Below the pieces are notes generated by a model, which saw nothing but the letters and a program-made list of their open reading frames with translations, did no database searches and was not told the origin of the DNA. A stretch of 64,000 nucleotides of DNA, from NCBI RefSeq assembly GCF_016313185.1, contig NZ_CP066218.1:4588001-4652000 (forward strand), written 5' to 3'. Position numbers and translations under genes: made by a program. The stretch's first letter is position 1; the number at the start of each line of letters is the position of its first letter. Shown here piece after piece: positions 3,680-63,637 of this stretch. This DNA comes from Mycolicibacterium baixiangningiae. GTDB taxonomy: Bacteria > Actinomycetota > Actinomycetes > Mycobacteriales > Mycobacteriaceae.

Positions 3680-4152
3680 TGGCAGAGAACCCCTACGACC
3701 ACGTCAGCGAACGGGGCGGGCCCGCACCCGTCCTCCAGCGCAGCCATGACCGGCCGCCGAGCCTGGACAACCCGCGCGCGCCCAAACGCGCAGGCGGCAT
3801 GCCGAACTTCGAGAAGTACGCCTGGCTGTTCATGCGCTTCTCCGGCCTCGTGCTGGTGTTCCTGGCGCTGGGCCACCTGTTCATCATGCTGATGTGGGAC
3901 GAAGGCGTGTACCGCATCGACTTCAACTACGTCGCGCAGCGCTGGTCGTCACCGTTCTGGCAGACGTGGGACCTGCTGCTGCTGTGGCTGGCCCAGCTGC
4001 ACGGCGGCAACGGCCTGCGCGTGATCATCTCCGACTACGCCCGCAAGGACTCGACGCGGTTCTGGCTGAACTCGCTGCTGGCGCTGTCGATGATCTTCAT
4101 CCTCGTCCTCGGCACCTACGTGCTGTTGACGTTCGACGCGAACATCTCGTAA
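3679..4152 (+). CDS. sdhD: Succinate dehydrogenase membrane anchor subunit
   Basis: Second membrane anchor of complex II. 157 aa; a 50-residue hydrophilic N-terminus precedes three hydrophobic helices (WLFMRFSGLVLVFLALGHLFIMLMW, WQTWDLLLLWLAQLHGGNGLRVII, LLALSMIFILVLGTYVLLTF). The His in ALGHLF and the RVIISDY segment fit haem/quinone-site positions. ATG at 3679 is preceded by an in-frame GTG at 3676; either could be used. sdhA follows after 13 bp. Confidence 0.9.
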   Translation: MAENPYDHVSERGGPAPVLQRSHDRPPSLDNPRAPKRAGGMPNFEKYAWLFMRFSGLVLVFLALGHLFIMLMWDEGVYRIDFNYVAQRWSSPFWQTWDLLLLWLAQLHGGNGLRVIISDYARKDSTRFWLNSLLALSMIFILVLGTYVLLTFDANIS

Positions 4153-51353: not shown

Positions 51354-51773
51354 ATGACAACTGGACTCACCGCGGAAGTGACCGGCAGGCTGGAATCCGA
51401 CCGGTCCGCCTGGCTGACCACTGTCGCCAAATCCGGTCAGCCCGTTCCGCGGTTGGTGTGGTTCCACTTCGACGGCACCGACGTGGTCGTGTACACGATG
51501 CCGGAGGCCGGCAAGGTCCGCCACATCAAGAACAACCCGCTGGTGAGCCTGAACCTCGATTCCGACGGCAAGGACCGCGGCGTCATCGTGGTCGGTGGTC
51601 CGGCACGCATCGACGCCACCGGAATCGACATGCGTGAGGACGGCCCGTTCTGGGCGAAGTACCAGACCTTCGCCGAGGAGATGGGGATCACCGACATCCT
51701 GGACGAGTACCACATGCGGTTGAAGATCAGCATCGAGAAGGTCTGGACCACGCCGCCAGAGGCTCTCCTCTAG
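51354..51773 (+). CDS. PPOX-class F420-dependent oxidoreductase
   Basis: 139 aa split-barrel flavin/F420 protein (ESDRSAWLTTVAKSGQPVPRLVWFHFDGTDVVVYTMPEAGKVRHIKNNPLVSLNL). Equivalent to Rv3369. Reaction unknown. A TACGGT ten bases before the ATG and no ribosome-binding site suggest a leaderless mRNA. Its stop overlaps the dnaE2 stop by 4 bp on the other strand. Confidence 0.85.
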   Translation: MTTGLTAEVTGRLESDRSAWLTTVAKSGQPVPRLVWFHFDGTDVVVYTMPEAGKVRHIKNNPLVSLNLDSDGKDRGVIVVGGPARIDATGIDMREDGPFWAKYQTFAEEMGITDILDEYHMRLKISIEKVWTTPPEALL

Positions 51774-54700
51774 CGGAAGTCGCGCGACCTCGACCCGACC
51801 CGCATGTCGAGCGCGCCCAGCCGGTCGGCGACGACGGTGACCGCACCGGTGGCGTTCTGCACGATTCCGCGGATCACCATCGCAGGCGCCGTCTGGGCCA
51901 GGCGGCGTTGGCGCGACCAGAGTTGCGGTGAGCACACCACATTCACCATTCCCGTCTCGTCCTCGAGGTTGAGGAACGTCACGCCCTGCGCGGTGGCCGG
52001 ACGCTGCCGATGGGTCACGGCGCCGGCCACCAGCACCCGGGTGCCGTCGGGCACCTCCAGCAGCCGGCCCGCGGGCACGACGCCCATCGCGTCGAGGTTT
52101 TCGCGTAGGAACTGGGTGGGATAGCTGTCCGGGGACACCCCGGTGGCCCACACGTCGGCGGCGGCGAGTTCCAGCTTGCTCATTCCCGGGAGCGACGGAA
52201 TCTGCCCTGCGGACCCCACCCCCGGTAGCCGGTCCGGCCGTTCCGCGGCGGCCGCACCCGCCGCCCACAGCCCCTCGCGGCGGGTGACGCCGAAACAGCC
52301 CAGCGCCCCCGCGGTGGCCAGCGCTTCGGTCTGCGGCACCGACAGTTGCACCCGGCCGGTCAGGTCCAGCAGGTTCGCGAACGGGCCGTTGGCCTTTCGC
52401 TCTTCGACGATGTGCTCTGCGAGGTCGTCGCCGATGTGGCGGACCGCACCGAGGCCCAACCGCACCTCGGTGCCGACGTTCTCCAGCGTGGCGTACGCCA
52501 GGCTGGCATTGACGTCGGGCCCGTGCACGATCACGCCGTGCCGGCGCGCGTCGGCCACCAGCGACTGCGGTGAGTAGAAGCCCATCGGCTGCGCCCGCAG
52601 CAGCGCCGCGCAGAACGCCGCCGGGTGATGCAGCTTGAACCACGACGAGTAGAACACCAGCGACGCGAAGCTCAGTGAATGACTCTCGGGGAAGCCGAAA
52701 TTCGCGAACGCCTCCAGTTTCTCGTAGATGCGGTCGGCCACGTCGCCGGTGATGCCGTGCCGCTGCCGCATCCCGTCGTAGAACCGACCCCGCAGACGGC
52801 GCATCTTCTCCGTCGAGCGTTTCGACCCCATGGCGCGGCGCAGCTGGTCGGCCTCGGCGGCGGTGAACCCGGCACAGTCGACGGCGAGTTGCATCAACTG
52901 CTCCTGAAAGAGCGGAACCCCCAGCGTCTTTCGCAGCGCGGCCTCCATCGAGGGATGGTCGTAGGTGACCTCCTCTTCGCCGTTGCGCCGTTTGATGTAG
53001 GGGTGTACCGACCCGCCCTGGATGGGCCCGGGCCGGATCAGCGCCACCTCGACCACCAGGTCGTAGAACACGCGGGGTTTCAGCCGCGGGAGCGTGGCCA
53101 TCTGCGCGCGGGACTCCACCTGGAACACCCCGACCGAATCGGCCTTCTGCAGCATCTCGTAGACGGCGGCCTCCGACAGGTCGAGCTTCGCCAGGTCGAC
53201 GTCGAGGCCCTTGTGCTCGGCCACCAGGTCGATGCAATAGTGCAGCGCCGAGAGCATGCCAAGCCCGAGCATGTCGAACTTCACCAAACCGATTGCCGCA
53301 CAATCGTCTTTGTCCCACTGCAGCACGCTTCGGTTGGCCATGCGGGCCCACTCGACCGGGCACACGTCGGCGATCGGCCGGTCGCAGATCACCATGCCGC
53401 CCGAGTGGATTCCCATGTGCCGCGGCAGGTTCGAGATCTGCAATGCCAGGTCCACCACCGGCTCGGGGATGCCCTCGATGTCCGGCGAGTCGGCCAACCC
53501 GTTCCACTTGCTGAGCTGTTTGCTCCAGGCGTCCTGCTGGCCCTGGGAGAAGCCGAGCGCGCGGGCCATGTCGCGGATGGCGCTGCGGCCGCGGTAGGTG
53601 ATCACGTTGGCGACCTGGGCTGCGTAGTCACGGCCGTAGCGTTCGTAGACGTACTGGATCGCCTGCTCGCGCAGGTCGGATTCGATGTCGACGTCGATGT
53701 CGGGTGGCCCGTCGCGGGCCGGGGACAGGAACCGCTCGAACAGCAACTCGTTGGCGACCGGGTCGACGTTGGTGACCCCGAGTGCGTAACAGACCGCGGA
53801 GTTGGCCGCCGACCCCCGGCCCTGGGCCAGGATGCCGTTGTCCTTGCAGAACCGGGTGATGTCGTGGACGACGAGGAAGTAGCCGGGGAACGTGAGCTTT
53901 TCGATGATCCGCAGCTCGTGCTCGATCTGGGCGTAGGCCTGCGGCGCCCGTTCCGGTGAACCGTAGCGATCCCGGGCGCCGAGCATCACCAGGTGGCGCA
54001 GCCAGCTGTCCTCGGTGTGCCCGGACGGCACGTCGAACGGCGGCAGCTTCGGGGCGATCAGCGCCAACCCGAACGCGCACTGCTCCCCCAGATCCGCGGC
54101 GGCGGTGACCACCTCGGGGCGATGGGCGAACAACCGGGCCATCTCCTCCCCCGAGCGCAGGTGTGACCCGCCGAGCGGGGCGAGGTAGCCGGCGGCCTCG
54201 TCGATCGAGTTGCGGGCCCGGATCGCGCCCATCGCCATCGCCAGCCGTCCGCGCGACGGCTCGGCGAAGTGGGCGGCGGTGGTGGCGACGATGGCGAGAC
54301 CGAAGCGCGGGGCCAGCTCGGCCAGCGCGGCATTGCGCTCGTCGTCGAGGGGGTGGCCGTGGTGGGTCAGCTCGACGCTGATCCGGTCGCGACCGAACCG
54401 GTCGACCAGATCGGCCAGCGCCGCTTCGGCCGCTTCCGGTCCTCCATCCGAAAGCGCCTGCCGGACATGACCTTTACGGCATCCGGTGAGGATGTGCCAA
54501 TGCCCTCCGGCGGCTTCGGTGAGCGCGTCGTAGTCGTAGCGCGGTTTACCCTTCTCCCCACCGGCCAGATGGGCTTTGGCGATCTCACGGGACAGCCGGC
54601 GGTAGCCCTCCGGCCCGCGGGCCAGCACCAGCAGGTGGGGTCCCGGCGGATCGGGCACCTCGGTGCGCGCGATGTTGCCCAGCGACAGCTCGGCACCGAA

Positions 54701-55063
54701 CACCGTCTGCATATCTAGTTCCTTGGCCGCCTCGGCGAACCGGACGACTCCGTAGAGCCCGTCGTGGTCGGTCAGCGCGATGGCCCGCAGATCCAGGCGG
54801 GCGGCCTCCTCGACGAGCTCTTCCGGGGTGCCGGCGCCGTCGAGGAAGCTGTACGCCGAATGCGCGTGCAGTTCGGCGTAGGGCACCGCGCCACCCGACC
54901 GCGGCAGATCCGGCGCCCGATAGGCACCGCGCTTACGCGACCACGCCGGGCTGTCGCCGCCGTCACCGGGGGGTTCGACGGGTGATTCGCCGGCACGGCG
55001 GGGCTTGCTGGTGAGCACCCGCTCCATCTCCGACCAGCTCGGAGGTCCGTTGAACCAGCTCAC
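51770..55063 (-). CDS. dnaE2: Error-prone DNA polymerase DnaE2
   Basis: 1097 aa C-family polymerase of the SOS mutasome. N-terminal PHP domain (YAELHAHSAYSFLDGAGTPEELVEEA), polymerase core with the catalytic PPDIDVDIESDLR, the RGSAANSAVCYALGVT and FPESHSLSFASLVFYSSW blocks, and a C-terminal OB fold. GTG 55063 (VSWFNGPPSWSEMERVL) matches the M. tuberculosis start; the longer frame runs through the LexA box. It works with ImuA' and ImuB, both also in this window, in damage-induced mutagenesis. Equivalent to Rv3370c. Confidence 0.96.
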   Translation of the reverse strand: MSWFNGPPSWSEMERVLTSKPRRAGESPVEPPGDGGDSPAWSRKRGAYRAPDLPRSGGAVPYAELHAHSAYSFLDGAGTPEELVEEAARLDLRAIALTDHDGLYGVVRFAEAAKELDMQTVFGAELSLGNIARTEVPDPPGPHLLVLARGPEGYRRLSREIAKAHLAGGEKGKPRYDYDALTEAAGGHWHILTGCRKGHVRQALSDGGPEAAEAALADLVDRFGRDRISVELTHHGHPLDDERNAALAELAPRFGLAIVATTAAHFAEPSRGRLAMAMGAIRARNSIDEAAGYLAPLGGSHLRSGEEMARLFAHRPEVVTAAADLGEQCAFGLALIAPKLPPFDVPSGHTEDSWLRHLVMLGARDRYGSPERAPQAYAQIEHELRIIEKLTFPGYFLVVHDITRFCKDNGILAQGRGSAANSAVCYALGVTNVDPVANELLFERFLSPARDGPPDIDVDIESDLREQAIQYVYERYGRDYAAQVANVITYRGRSAIRDMARALGFSQGQQDAWSKQLSKWNGLADSPDIEGIPEPVVDLALQISNLPRHMGIHSGGMVICDRPIADVCPVEWARMANRSVLQWDKDDCAAIGLVKFDMLGLGMLSALHYCIDLVAEHKGLDVDLAKLDLSEAAVYEMLQKADSVGVFQVESRAQMATLPRLKPRVFYDLVVEVALIRPGPIQGGSVHPYIKRRNGEEEVTYDHPSMEAALRKTLGVPLFQEQLMQLAVDCAGFTAAEADQLRRAMGSKRSTEKMRRLRGRFYDGMRQRHGITGDVADRIYEKLEAFANFGFPESHSLSFASLVFYSSWFKLHHPAAFCAALLRAQPMGFYSPQSLVADARRHGVIVHGPDVNASLAYATLENVGTEVRLGLGAVRHIGDDLAEHIVEERKANGPFANLLDLTGRVQLSVPQTEALATAGALGCFGVTRREGLWAAGAAAAERPDRLPGVGSAGQIPSLPGMSKLELAAADVWATGVSPDSYPTQFLRENLDAMGVVPAGRLLEVPDGTRVLVAGAVTHRQRPATAQGVTFLNLEDETGMVNVVCSPQLWSRQRRLAQTAPAMVIRGIVQNATGAVTVVADRLGALDMRVGSRSRDFR

Positions 55064-55075
55064 TTCTCGAGTGTA

Positions 55076-55091
55076 TCGAACATGCGTTCGA
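55076..55091. promoter_or_regulatory. LexA (SOS) box of dnaE2
   Basis: TCGAAC-atgc-GTTCGA, a perfect match to the mycobacterial SOS consensus, 12 bp upstream of the dnaE2 GTG. LexA bound here would cover the start region directly. Confidence 0.95.
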
Positions 55092-55187: not shown

Positions 55188-55209
55188 GGAAGGAGACGCG
55201 GCTCCTTCC
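55188..55209 (+). repeat. Perfect 8-bp stem hairpin
   Basis: GGAAGGAG-acgcgg-CTCCTTCC in the 245-bp gap between dnaE2 and the flavin monooxygenase. No T-run on either strand, so probably not a terminator. It holds a ribosome-binding-site-like GGAAGGAG, but no start codon with a long frame follows it. Confidence 0.5.
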
Positions 55210-55233
55210 CACTCTCAATCTATAGCGCACCCG

Positions 55234-55252
55234 GGGGCTTGCGGCAAGACCC
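55234..55252. promoter_or_regulatory. Rifamycin-associated-element-like palindrome
   Basis: GGGGCTTGCGGCAAGACCC differs at one position from the 19-bp rifamycin-associated element as I remember it (GGGGCTTGCGGCAAGGCCC), found upstream of rifamycin-inactivating and rifamycin-inducible genes in actinomycetes. It lies inside a wider inverted repeat (CCCGGGGG.../...CCCGGGG) and 56 bp before the GTG of the flavin monooxygenase. Confidence 0.7.
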
Positions 55253-55308
55253 GGGGTATGCCGCACACTCGCTGGCCGAACCCTTTGACCAGCGGAAATG
55301 GAGTAAGA

Positions 55309-56829
55309 GTGACAGATACCGACGTGATCGTCGTGGGCGCAGGTCCGACCGGTCTGATGCTGGCCGCCGAACTGCGTCTCGCCGGAGTGGGGGTGGTGGT
55401 GCTCGAGCGCCGGCCCCGGATCAACGAGGTCGCGAAGGCCGGCGGTCTCGGTGGACAGATCCTGCACGTGCTGCGCTATCGGGGACTGCTGGAGCGATTC
55501 GAGGCGGCAAGCGGCCTGCCGCGTCCCACGCCCCAATTCCCGTTCGGCGGCCTGCACGTCGACTTCACGCGTCTGGCGGAGCCGCCGATGGAGGCACTGC
55601 TTCTCCCGCAACCCCGCATCGAGGCCGTGCTCGAGGAGTACGTGCGTGAATGCGGCGCCGACGTCCGCCGCGGTCACGAGGTGCTCGGACTCGACGAGGA
55701 TCCGGCCGAGGTGAGCGTGGACGTACGCGGGCCGGACGGTGTCCACCGGGTGTCCGCGCGCTACGTGGTGGGTTGTGACGGTGTCCGTAGCCGTATCCGC
55801 GATCTGGCCGGCATCGCCTTTACCGGTGTCAGCTATCCGGAGGTCAACCGCCTCGCCCACGTGACCCGGCCGCCGTCGGTGTCACTGCGCGAGGACGGCG
55901 ATTACGAGGCGCCCGGCATCGGACTGTTGCGTTCCGGCTACACCCAGACCGACCACGGGATGTTCGCGATCGCCTCGATGACCCCCGACGAGCTGACGGT
56001 GTACACGAGCGAGGAGGATCCGGACACCTACGACGACGAGATCCCGATGACGGTGACCGAACTCGCGGACAGCATCCGCCGCGTGCTCGGAGCGGATCTT
56101 CCGCTGGGAGAGCCGATCACCATGACGCGCTTCACTTATCACGCCCGCCACGCCGAGCGGTACCGCGCCGGACGGATCCTGCTCGCCGGCGACGCCGCCC
56201 ACCGGTTCTCCGCCGGCGGCGTGGCCGTCAACGCCGGGATGCTCGACGCGGTCAACCTCGGCTGGAAGCTCGCCGCGGACGTCGCGGGCTGGGCGCCGAC
56301 GGGTCTGGTGGACACCTATCACGACGAACGTCACCGCGCGGGTGCACGCACCCTGATGCACACCCAGGCGCAGGTTGCGCTGCGCCGTGGCGCCGACCCG
56401 GCCGCCGAGGCGCTGCGCGAACTCCTCGGCGAACTCCTCCTCGACGAGGACCCGGTGCGCCGCATCGGCCGCCTCATCGCCGGCAGTGACGTCACATATC
56501 CGACGCCCGGTCTCGACCAGCACCCGTTGGTCGGCACCTTCGCGCCCGATCTCCCGCTGCGCACCGCGGAGGGCACCACAACGGTCGCGACGCTGATGCA
56601 CACCGCCCGGCCGGTCCTGCTCGACCTTGCCGACCGGCAGGCGCTGCGCGAGACCGCCCGCGGCTGGCAGGACCGCGTCGAGATCGTCACCGCCCGAACC
56701 GATCCGCGGCCCGCGGATGCTCTCCTGATCCGTCCGGACGCCCACATCGCCTGGGCCACCGATGTCGGCGAGCCCCACGACACCGCCGGGCCGGCACTGC
56801 GTGACGCACTCACCTACTGGTTCGGGTGA
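55309..56829 (+). CDS. Class A FAD monooxygenase, possible rifamycin monooxygenase
   Basis: 506 aa. FAD Rossmann motif VIVVGAGPTGLMLAAELRLAGVGVVVLERR at the N-terminus, the DG motif VVGCDGVRSRIRDLAGI (about 155), the GD motif ILLAGDAAHRFSAGGVAVNAGMLDAVNLGWKLA (about 290), and a C-terminal thioredoxin-like domain. Hydroxylates an aromatic substrate using NAD(P)H and oxygen. Rifamycin monooxygenases belong to this class, and the element upstream suggests a rifamycin role. The N-terminal third (INEVAKAGGLGGQILHVLRY) differs from the classical Rox/Iri sequences I recall. GTG 55309 follows GGAG by 5 nt. Confidence 0.82.
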   Translation: MTDTDVIVVGAGPTGLMLAAELRLAGVGVVVLERRPRINEVAKAGGLGGQILHVLRYRGLLERFEAASGLPRPTPQFPFGGLHVDFTRLAEPPMEALLLPQPRIEAVLEEYVRECGADVRRGHEVLGLDEDPAEVSVDVRGPDGVHRVSARYVVGCDGVRSRIRDLAGIAFTGVSYPEVNRLAHVTRPPSVSLREDGDYEAPGIGLLRSGYTQTDHGMFAIASMTPDELTVYTSEEDPDTYDDEIPMTVTELADSIRRVLGADLPLGEPITMTRFTYHARHAERYRAGRILLAGDAAHRFSAGGVAVNAGMLDAVNLGWKLAADVAGWAPTGLVDTYHDERHRAGARTLMHTQAQVALRRGADPAAEALRELLGELLLDEDPVRRIGRLIAGSDVTYPTPGLDQHPLVGTFAPDLPLRTAEGTTTVATLMHTARPVLLDLADRQALRETARGWQDRVEIVTARTDPRPADALLIRPDAHIAWATDVGEPHDTAGPALRDALTYWFG

Positions 56830-56883
56830 CGCGAACGGGCTGCGCTGCTGAATGCCGCGGCGACCTCTACGATGTCCTTGCCT

Positions 56884-57858
56884 ATGAAAGGAAATCGGGG
56901 GATGGCATCACAGAAGTACATCGGCTATGTCGGTGGATTGGCGGTCGCAGTCGGGGTGGGTGCCGCGGTCGCGGTCGCCGGCCAGGGCATCGCCCATGCG
57001 GAGACGGAGTCGGCATCGAGCGCGTCGCAGCCGGCGGGCGCGGCGAACACCGGCCCGAAGAAAGACGACACAGCCGACAAGGCGGATGAGTCTGACGACA
57101 AGGCGGAGTCTGACGACAAGGCGGAGTCCGACGACAAGGCGGAGGCCGAGGAGAAGTCCAGCGACGCCAAACCGTCGCTGACCAAGAAGCTCCGGCAATC
57201 CGCCCAGCAGTTCGAAGCCGAGCAGATCGAGAAGCTGCGCAGTGTGTTCACGCCGCGCGGGGTCGATCAGTCGGAGCCGACGCCTAAGCGCGACAACGCT
57301 TCTGAGAACGAGTCGACAGACGAGGTGGCCGAGGCCGGCATCGCCGAGAAGGCGGCCCAGGACCCGGTCGACGAACCCGTCGACAAGCCGGTGTCGCTGG
57401 CCGCGGAACCGGTGCCGTGGAGCCCCGACCCCTTCCGGCCCGAAGATCCTGATCCCGACGACATGCCCGCAGCGGTGCTCGCCCTGCGGGACGCGATCCT
57501 GCGCGCACCCATCGACCCGAGAGTCAAGCCGGTGATCCGCGAGGGCATCGAACTGGCGTACCGGATCAGCCAGGTGGCGCCGGTGGCCAACGTACCGGTG
57601 CCGGTGTACAAGATCATTCCGGCGCTCGCGGAAGCCGCCCAGGGCAACAAGGCCGGCGCGCAGGTCATCGTCAACCAACTGCTGTTGACCACACAGCCGG
57701 TGGCGCTGCTGTACTACGGCTACGACCAGATCGCCGACCTGCTCAACATGGAGTACGAGGCGCGTGACCTCAAGCAGGAGTTCTACCGCACCGCGTGGGA
57801 CACGGTCGATCCGCTGGCACTGCTGCACATTCGGGGCCAGCACGGCCTTCGCAGTTAG
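56884..57858 (+). CDS. Acidic exported protein of unknown function
   Basis: 324 aa. Signal sequence MASQKYIGYVGGLAVAVGVG then AAVAVAGQGIAHA, a leader common to large mycobacterial exported proteins. Then an acidic Lys/Glu/Asp repeat region (DDKAES x3), a coiled-coil-like LRQSAQQFEAEQIEKLRSVF, an acidic Pro linker, and a compact C-terminal domain (AVLALRDAILRAPIDPRVKPVIREGIELAYRISQ, LLNMEYEARDLKQEFYRTAWDTVDPLALLH). No known catalytic motif. ATG 56884 has GAAAGGA nearby; an ATG at 56902 would also work. 3' end overlaps the convergent USP gene by 4 bp. Confidence 0.72.
   Translation: MKGNRGMASQKYIGYVGGLAVAVGVGAAVAVAGQGIAHAETESASSASQPAGAANTGPKKDDTADKADESDDKAESDDKAESDDKAEAEEKSSDAKPSLTKKLRQSAQQFEAEQIEKLRSVFTPRGVDQSEPTPKRDNASENESTDEVAEAGIAEKAAQDPVDEPVDKPVSLAAEPVPWSPDPFRPEDPDPDDMPAAVLALRDAILRAPIDPRVKPVIREGIELAYRISQVAPVANVPVPVYKIIPALAEAAQGNKAGAQVIVNQLLLTTQPVALLYYGYDQIADLLNMEYEARDLKQEFYRTAWDTVDPLALLHIRGQHGLRS
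57094..57147 (+). repeat. Three tandem 18-bp coding repeats
   Basis: GACGACAAGGCGGAGTC(T/C) at 57094-57111 and 57112-57129, and a variant ending GAGGCC at 57130-57147, each coding DDKAES (last DDKAEA). In-frame, so copy number can change without frameshift. Confidence 0.9.
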
Positions 57859-63621: not shown

Positions 63622-63637
63622 TCGAACCTTTGTTCGA
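63622..63637. promoter_or_regulatory. LexA (SOS) box of imuA'-imuB
   Basis: TCGAAC-cttt-GTTCGA, a perfect SOS consensus 36 bp upstream of the imuA' GTG. Confidence 0.95.

Follow-up and report, generated by a model that had tools for sequence, protein, structure and literature searches.

A rifamycin-associated element ahead of a class A flavin monooxygenase outside the Rox family in Mycolicibacterium baixiangningiae

The locus

The window, that is, the whole 64-kb stretch of Mycolicibacterium baixiangningiae DNA analysed here, contains an intergenic region from which two genes diverge (Table 1). One encodes a class A FAD-dependent monooxygenase, the other the error-prone DNA polymerase DnaE2. 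In the clade of this monooxygenase, named P1-type here, dnaE2 is the immediate divergent neighbor in 8 of 30 regions, including that of the window, and lies about 8 kb away in one more. The intergenic region is common to two control regions, one of rifamycin type, built on a rifamycin-associated element (RAE), and one of SOS type ahead of dnaE2, where TCGAACATGCGTTCGA is SOS-box-like. A second SOS-box-like sequence, TCGAACCTTTGTTCGA, occurs in the window at 63622 (+). Downstream of the monooxygenase gene, an ORF of 328 aa (56872-57858, +) has no Pfam or NCBIfam match. Neither a sigma-70 consensus nor a U-tailed terminator was found between 55060 and 55330.

Table 1. Features of the region between dnaE2 and the monooxygenase gene, in window coordinates
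Feature	Position	Strand	Basis or remark
Error-prone DNA polymerase DnaE2, divergent neighbor	51770..55063	-	NF004225, 1588 bits (cut-off 939)
SOS-box-like TCGAACATGCGTTCGA ahead of dnaE2	55076..55091		Resemblance to the SOS-box consensus
Perfect hairpin GGAAGGAG-ACGCGG-CTCCTTCC, directly upstream of the conserved block	55188..55209	+	8 bp stem, z -2.91
Conserved block CACTCTCAATCTATAGCGCACCCG ahead of the RAE, including TATAG at 55221-55225	55210..55233	+	Recurs at P1-type, PRK06834-type, Rox and HelR loci, with a weaker signal at Arr loci
RAE, inverted repeat GGGGCTTG-CGG-CAAGACCC	55234..55252	+	Before 21 of 21 genus orthologues; 90-site alignment
Conserved block downstream of the RAE, with CACACT at 55264-55269	55253..55280	+	Alignment of RAE loci; putative promoter role, after the helD promoter (PMC10719064)
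P1-type class A FAD-dependent monooxygenase of 506 aa, with a GTG start codon and GGAG at 55300-55303	55309..56829	+	Domains, profiles, tree

A genuine RAE

The palindrome GGGGCTTGCGGCAAGACCC ends 56 bp ahead of the GTG codon of the monooxygenase gene. Its sequence, its position and this spacing are as an earlier note on this DNA had given them. That note placed the palindrome one base away from the RAE, which holds against a consensus with G at position 16. Of the 90 RAE sites gathered here, 61 have A at this position, 25 have G and 4 have C (one locus, L100, is counted twice), and A, the letter found in the window, is thus the commonest one. The site is identical to GGGGCTTGCGGCAAGRCCC and has the form of a 19-bp inverted repeat near a start codon. 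When up to three mismatches are allowed, shuffling predicts 0.09 matches in the 64-kb window, and the palindrome is the sole match on both strands. No other site with 0-1 mismatches exists in the single contig of 6.18 Mb that makes up the genome. The second-best site of this genome, GGGACTTGCGGCAAGGCCG, which is the only one with two mismatches, is located 49 bp ahead of helR. The 725-aa HelR protein scores 1336 bits with motor_HelR_2 (cut-off 1100) and 1359 bits with HelD_MYCSM (cut-off 1051) of NCBIfam, and also matches the solved HelD. Since helR is a known RAE gene (PMC10719064; PMC8655204), it provides an internal control within the same genome. No RAE with up to three mismatches was found at the Arr gene of this genome (G000:C1:3457570).

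GC-rich genomes hold stray sites with two or three mismatches, and a chance match might therefore be considered. This explanation is extremely improbable, as the match is exact, both flanking blocks are complete and the site is conserved before orthologues, which refutes it. The palindrome is a genuine RAE and the gene at 55309 very probably belongs to the RAE regulon.

Organization of the control region

The alignment of 90 RAE loci, drawn from seven sets (L100 belongs to two of them), reveals a common control region of about 75 bp in which CCACttTCAAcaTATAGCgCAcc is followed by the RAE and then by cgGTcgTGCcgCAgAATCGctGGcCGa. This region is common to helR, arr, rox and other oxygenase genes, with a weaker signal in the Arr set, and the copy in the window fits it. 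Where the window has CACACT, most copies have CAGAAT or CACAAT. In the window, this hexamer is separated by 19 bp from a TTGCGG motif located inside the RAE (55239-55244). Such a spacing between TTGCGG and CAnAAT is long and would suit an activated promoter. At promoter 2 of helD, the -35 element overlaps the RAE according to a FEMS review, which leaves the responsible factor unnamed (PMC10719064). By analogy, we infer that TTGCGG and the CAnAAT block form a promoter that overlaps the RAE.

Across the 90 sites, the arms of the RAE are nearly invariant. Its center is CGG in 68, CCG in 12 and TGG in 10 of them. Positions 4 and 16, which would be opposite each other in a hairpin, read G/A at 54 sites and G/G at 18. 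This pattern is better explained by a protein that recognizes a pair of half-sites than by an RNA hairpin or an ordinary -35 box. The 19-mer also folds barely better than its shuffles (z -0.70), which makes an RNA hairpin a weak candidate. An ordinary -35 box fits poorly as well, TTGCGG being variable in its 3' half (TTGTGG, TTGCCG, and TTGTTT in locus L074) while the arms stay constant.

The earlier note had also drawn attention to the adjacent perfect hairpin and supposed that it may share the control region of the RAE. The hairpin is indeed present (Table 1), and its assignment to that region is no more than suggestive. At related RAE loci, a hairpin of another sequence ends at the same place, just ahead of CCAC (for instance L076, L101, L136 and L257). 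Over 92 RAE loci, the 42-nt upstream stretch has a mean folding z of -0.91, with -1.65 for the Rox set, -1.33 for HelR, -1.08 for the genus P1-type, -0.91 for PRK06834, -0.85 for other P1-type and -0.09 for Arr. Re-pairing of the arms was tested on 91 rows, of which 75 were anchored, with 66 distinct arms and a statistic that ignores the relatedness of the loci. Own arms paired better (6.42) than swapped ones (6.04), and none of 200 shuffles reached 6.42. By set, the corresponding counts out of 2000 shuffles were 7 for the genus P1-type, 52 for Arr, 216 for other P1-type, 395 for Rox, 607 for HelR and 1195 for PRK06834. Taken as suggestive, these data would make the hairpin a second structural part of the RAE control region.

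The monooxygenase

The protein comprises an FAD_binding_3 domain (PF01494, 236 bits) and a C-terminal aromatic-hydroxylase domain (Rng_hyd_C, 100 bits). Its GAGPTG, CDGVRS and GDAAH segments correspond to the GxGxxG, DG and GD motifs; the GDAAH loop of the window copy, alone among 28 P1-type sequences, has S in place of P. The earlier note had taken the protein for a class A flavin monooxygenase whose first third does not look like classical Rox/Iri, and both the profile score and the tree place it outside that family. Membership of Rox/Iri can be rejected, with 316.7 bits against a cut-off of 800 for rif_monoox (NF033145) and a position outside the Rox clade. Sequence identity amounts to 39% with RIFMO, 37% with one Rox, 45% with 23lo and 46% with MtmOIV. 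Ranked by score, the solved relatives are 23lo (396 bits), MtmOIV (329), Rox 5vqb (240) and RIFMO 5kow (239), with the hydroxylases PgaE and OxyS scoring near MtmOIV and 23lo. An AlphaFold2 model of moderate quality (pLDDT 77.4, pTM 0.64) was submitted to Foldseek, where MtmOIV ranked first and RIFMO 22nd; the rmsd values were about 17 Å, so that the model is informative for the fold class only. The protein as a whole stands closer to oxygenases of the MtmOIV/23lo type than it does to Rox.

In RIFMO, 14 residues of the rifampicin pocket are listed (PMC11375879). The mean number of these residues kept is 7.4 in Rox, 5.4 in the RAE-linked PRK06834 clade, 3.9 in P1-type and 4.3 in three reference polyketide oxygenases, and it falls to 2.2 for the sister set without RAEs. 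The window protein keeps three of them (L176, F256 and G285). Judged by residue identity, the RIFMO pocket is not retained in P1-type, which suggests that a rifamycin would bind the P1-type enzyme otherwise than RIFMO. Rox members themselves keep only half of the pocket, so that the residue count neither proves nor excludes rifamycin as the P1-type substrate.

Conservation and origin of the pairing

Orthologues were defined by E <= 1e-130, and an RAE was counted upstream at up to two mismatches. A P1-type orthologue, with 58-79% identity, occurs in 20 of the 395 other genomes of the genus, and an RAE precedes all 21 P1-type genes, window included. In a sample of the class (394 genomes), nine orthologues were found in other genera, four of them with an RAE (L070-L073). 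None was found upstream of L066-L069, and L074, with intact arms, a TTT center and four mismatches, was not counted. Among the best 80 of 444 relatives, an RAE precedes 9 of 13 P1-type genes, namely those of Rhodococcus oryzae, Nocardia abscessus, N. fusca, N. vinacea, Crossiella sp., Amycolatopsis acididurans, A. decaplanina, Mycolicibacterium sp. CBMA 234 and Actinokineospora inagensis; those of Nonomuraea dietziae, Micromonospora sp., Actinomadura kijaniata and Nocardioides sp. have no good RAE. These 13 genes may overlap the genus and class-sample sets, and the counts are not to be summed. As controls, 29 paralogues with 41-48% identity have no RAE before them. Canonical Rox genes, over the profile cut-off, have one in six of nine cases; outside the genus, the P1-type pairing is thus about as regular as that of Rox. 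Relatedness of the genomes would inflate any P value attached to this pairing. Homologues consistently lacking the element, which according to the earlier note would speak against its proposal, are not what these three samples contain.

A quick tree was built from 106 rows, without the truncated L093 and L094. RAE-linked oxygenases occupy three places in it, canonical Rox, a PRK06834-type mycobacterial clade and P1-type. The P1-type clade (28 rows, SH-aLRT 100) is joined by 23lo and by 31 mycobacterial rows that form a clade free of RAEs (SH-aLRT 97). The PRK06834 clade is mostly RAE-linked, and its four scanned members pass NF005303 (819-854 bits, cut-off 625). A single clade of RAE-linked oxygenases, with close RAE-free members, costs 104.5 log units (p-AU 0.00024), for a grouping drawn after seeing the tree. 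Its rejection implies either repeated gain of the RAE or an exchange of promoters between lineages. Thus, the RAE-oxygenase pairing is conserved in much of the P1-type clade and has arisen apart from Rox. The new branch proposed in the earlier note is borne out to this extent. The PRK06834 type, labeled 'hypothetical protein' in NCBIfam, is a second non-Rox lineage with RAE loci in many mycobacteria (L095-L113, L115, L119, L121, L122).

That the RAE-linked oxygenases are not one clade, and that P1-type has members with and without an RAE, could also mean that a rearrangement or a transfer fused the gene to an RAE promoter, rifamycin induction then being of no benefit to the cell. The pairing is, however, kept in the whole genus set, even where identity falls to 58%, and extends to several other families, with intact flanking blocks. 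Such an accidental fusion is improbable.

RAE genes of the genus and neighbors of P1-type genes

An RAE site with up to two mismatches occurs in 52 of 60 genomes of the genus. Among 29 of these sites read as loci (L037-L065), the downstream gene is Arr-like in 13, an FMO in nine, HelR-like in three and an Rgt-like glycosyltransferase in one, as classed by eye from the N-terminus; the three others are 2-mismatch sites without the TATAG block. Profiles verified one Arr (256 bits, cut-off 250) and one HelR, that of the genome of the window; the Rgt-like protein checked in the same way reached 461 bits against a cut-off of 800 and is thus Rgt-related but below cut-off. Eight RAE sites directly precede PF12120 (Arr) genes.

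Of the 13 loci among the best 80 of 444 relatives, 2 encode HelR near the P1-type gene. In A. acididurans, a helR-like ORF converges with the P1-type ORF at a distance of 45 bp and has no RAE with up to two mismatches in the locus examined. In R. oryzae, helR starts about 2.2 kb downstream of the P1-type gene and has its own exact RAE. In 30 P1-type regions of 14.6-19.9 kb, no match to HelR, Arr or Rgt was found. A gene over the rif_monoox cut-off is present in none of the 21 P1-type genomes of the genus, eight of which have a weaker match at E <= 1e-120, and in five of the nine outside. In one genome (G113), Rox and P1-type genes about 18 kb apart each have an RAE.

RAE sites outside Actinobacteria

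In Vulcaniibacterium tengchongense, an exact RAE with its flanking blocks precedes a PRK06834-type FMO (L210, 3905-3923). Two Bradyrhizobium have GGGGCTTG-CTT-CAAGCCCC before PRK06834-type genes. Sites with three mismatches are found before a PRK06834-type gene in a Gemmatimonadetes MAG and before Rox in Dokdonella, and in Corallococcus an arm match with one mismatch, noticed by eye, lies before an FMO-like ORF. Besides L210, the RAE or RAE-like loci outside Actinobacteria are L216 (~3858-3876), L221 (~3856-3874), L252, L208 and L223. In some genomes, the looser arm pattern at one mismatch has many control matches, so that only exact sites carry weight. In gammaproteobacteria, 4 of 274 genomes have an RAE site with at most one mismatch; at the three sites other than that of Vulcaniibacterium, no FMO is visible downstream. 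Joint transfer of promoter and gene is the simplest reading. Among the titles and abstracts surveyed, which do not include the primary RAE papers, none dealt with a non-Rox RAE-linked monooxygenase or with an RAE outside Actinobacteria.

Interpretation

We propose, with a probability of roughly 60%, that the locus is a rifamycin-alarm transcription unit in which an RAE promoter drives a P1-type monooxygenase inactivating a rifamycin or a close analogue. When rifamycin hits RNA polymerase, some factor would read the half-sites GGGnCTTG and CAAGnCCC and switch on the promoter overlapping the RAE. HelR, which clears the polymerase, and the monooxygenase would then be induced together. The enzyme, using NAD(P)H, FAD and O2, might oxidize the naphthohydroquinone of rifamycin or of a close analogue and thereby inactivate the drug. 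The chemistry might be a hydroxylation as in Rox, or a Baeyer-Villiger-like attack such as that of MtmOIV on its own substrate. P1-type would be a second oxygenase lineage under the RAE switch, apart from Rox, and perhaps a stand-in for Rox, which is absent from the genome of the window.

Several observations argue for this proposal. The best and next-best RAE of the genome lie before the monooxygenase gene and helR, the control region is conserved, and the pairing holds for all 21 P1-type genes of the genus. There, 26 of 29 RAE loci precede Arr-, HelR-, Rgt-like or FMO genes. HelR is found near some P1-type genes, no genus P1-type genome has a gene over the rif_monoox cut-off, and the protein has both FAD and C-terminal aromatic-hydroxylase domains. 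Against it stand the RIFMO pocket, kept no better than in polyketide oxygenases, the S for P replacement in the GDAAH loop, the lack of a good RAE in five of nine class-sample orthologues and in 4 of 13 among the best 80 of 444 relatives, the A. acididurans HelR without RAE, and the 30 P1-type regions without HelR, Arr or Rgt.

Some of these points would also suit another substrate. The gene would then belong to a regulon for rifamycin or RNA-polymerase stress, and its enzyme would act on some other ansamycin, on an aromatic polyketide or on a quinone encountered alongside RNA-polymerase inhibitors. The nearest solved relatives (MtmOIV, PgaE and OxyS) act in polyketide pathways, the RIFMO pocket is not kept and RAE-less orthologues exist. 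Considering that RAE sites of the genus accompany genes for Arr, HelR, Rgt-like proteins and FMOs, the first two with established rifamycin functions, we regard this alternative as the less likely one. Most likely, the P1-type enzyme would be induced by rifamycin and inactivate rifamycins or similar RNA-polymerase inhibitors, and the P1-type clade may represent a second class of oxygenases that respond to rifamycin.

A wider view, which we put forward tentatively and at less than even odds, is that P1-type would be a second rifamycin-inactivating oxygenase with another, perhaps Baeyer-Villiger, chemistry, the RAE being a portable switch captured by Rox, PRK06834-type and P1-type enzymes and moved with some of them beyond Actinobacteria. 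If so, the reader of the RAE would be either widespread or identical with RNA polymerase, and not a factor confined to Actinobacteria. The few RAE copies outside this phylum already raise the question of whether an actinobacterial factor is needed. Moreover, dozens of aligned sites, in which the arms matter and the center much less, make this reader more approachable. In some mycobacteria, an oxidative loss of rifamycins has no assigned enzyme; in M. abscessus, candidates selected for their similarity to Rox were deleted without effect (PMC8370238). RAE linkage offers a sharper choice of candidates than similarity and points to P1-type and PRK06834-type enzymes, neither of which is labeled as a rifamycin enzyme in NCBIfam.

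Comparison with known systems

Rox, RIFMO and Iri share with the window protein the class A flavoprotein monooxygenase fold, and are often RAE-linked as well (6 of 9). The window protein differs from them by its 39% identity to RIFMO, its 317 bits against 800, its separate clade and the RIFMO pocket residues, which it does not keep. PRK06834-type enzymes (NF005303) are also found behind an RAE, in many mycobacteria and a few non-actinobacteria, but they form another clade, nearer to Rox, with one member 47% identical to RIFMO. By sequence and fold, the nearest systems are MtmOIV and 23lo, named Baeyer-Villiger monooxygenases (45-46% identity), together with PgaE and OxyS; unlike theirs, the window gene adjoins dnaE2, with no polyketide cluster visible, and has an RAE promoter. 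Finally, the RAE genes of Actinobacteria (helR, rox, rgt and arr) have the same 19-bp repeat, with the same flanking blocks and in the same position before the gene, whereas the window gene encodes an oxygenase of a clade that bears no rifamycin label in NCBIfam.
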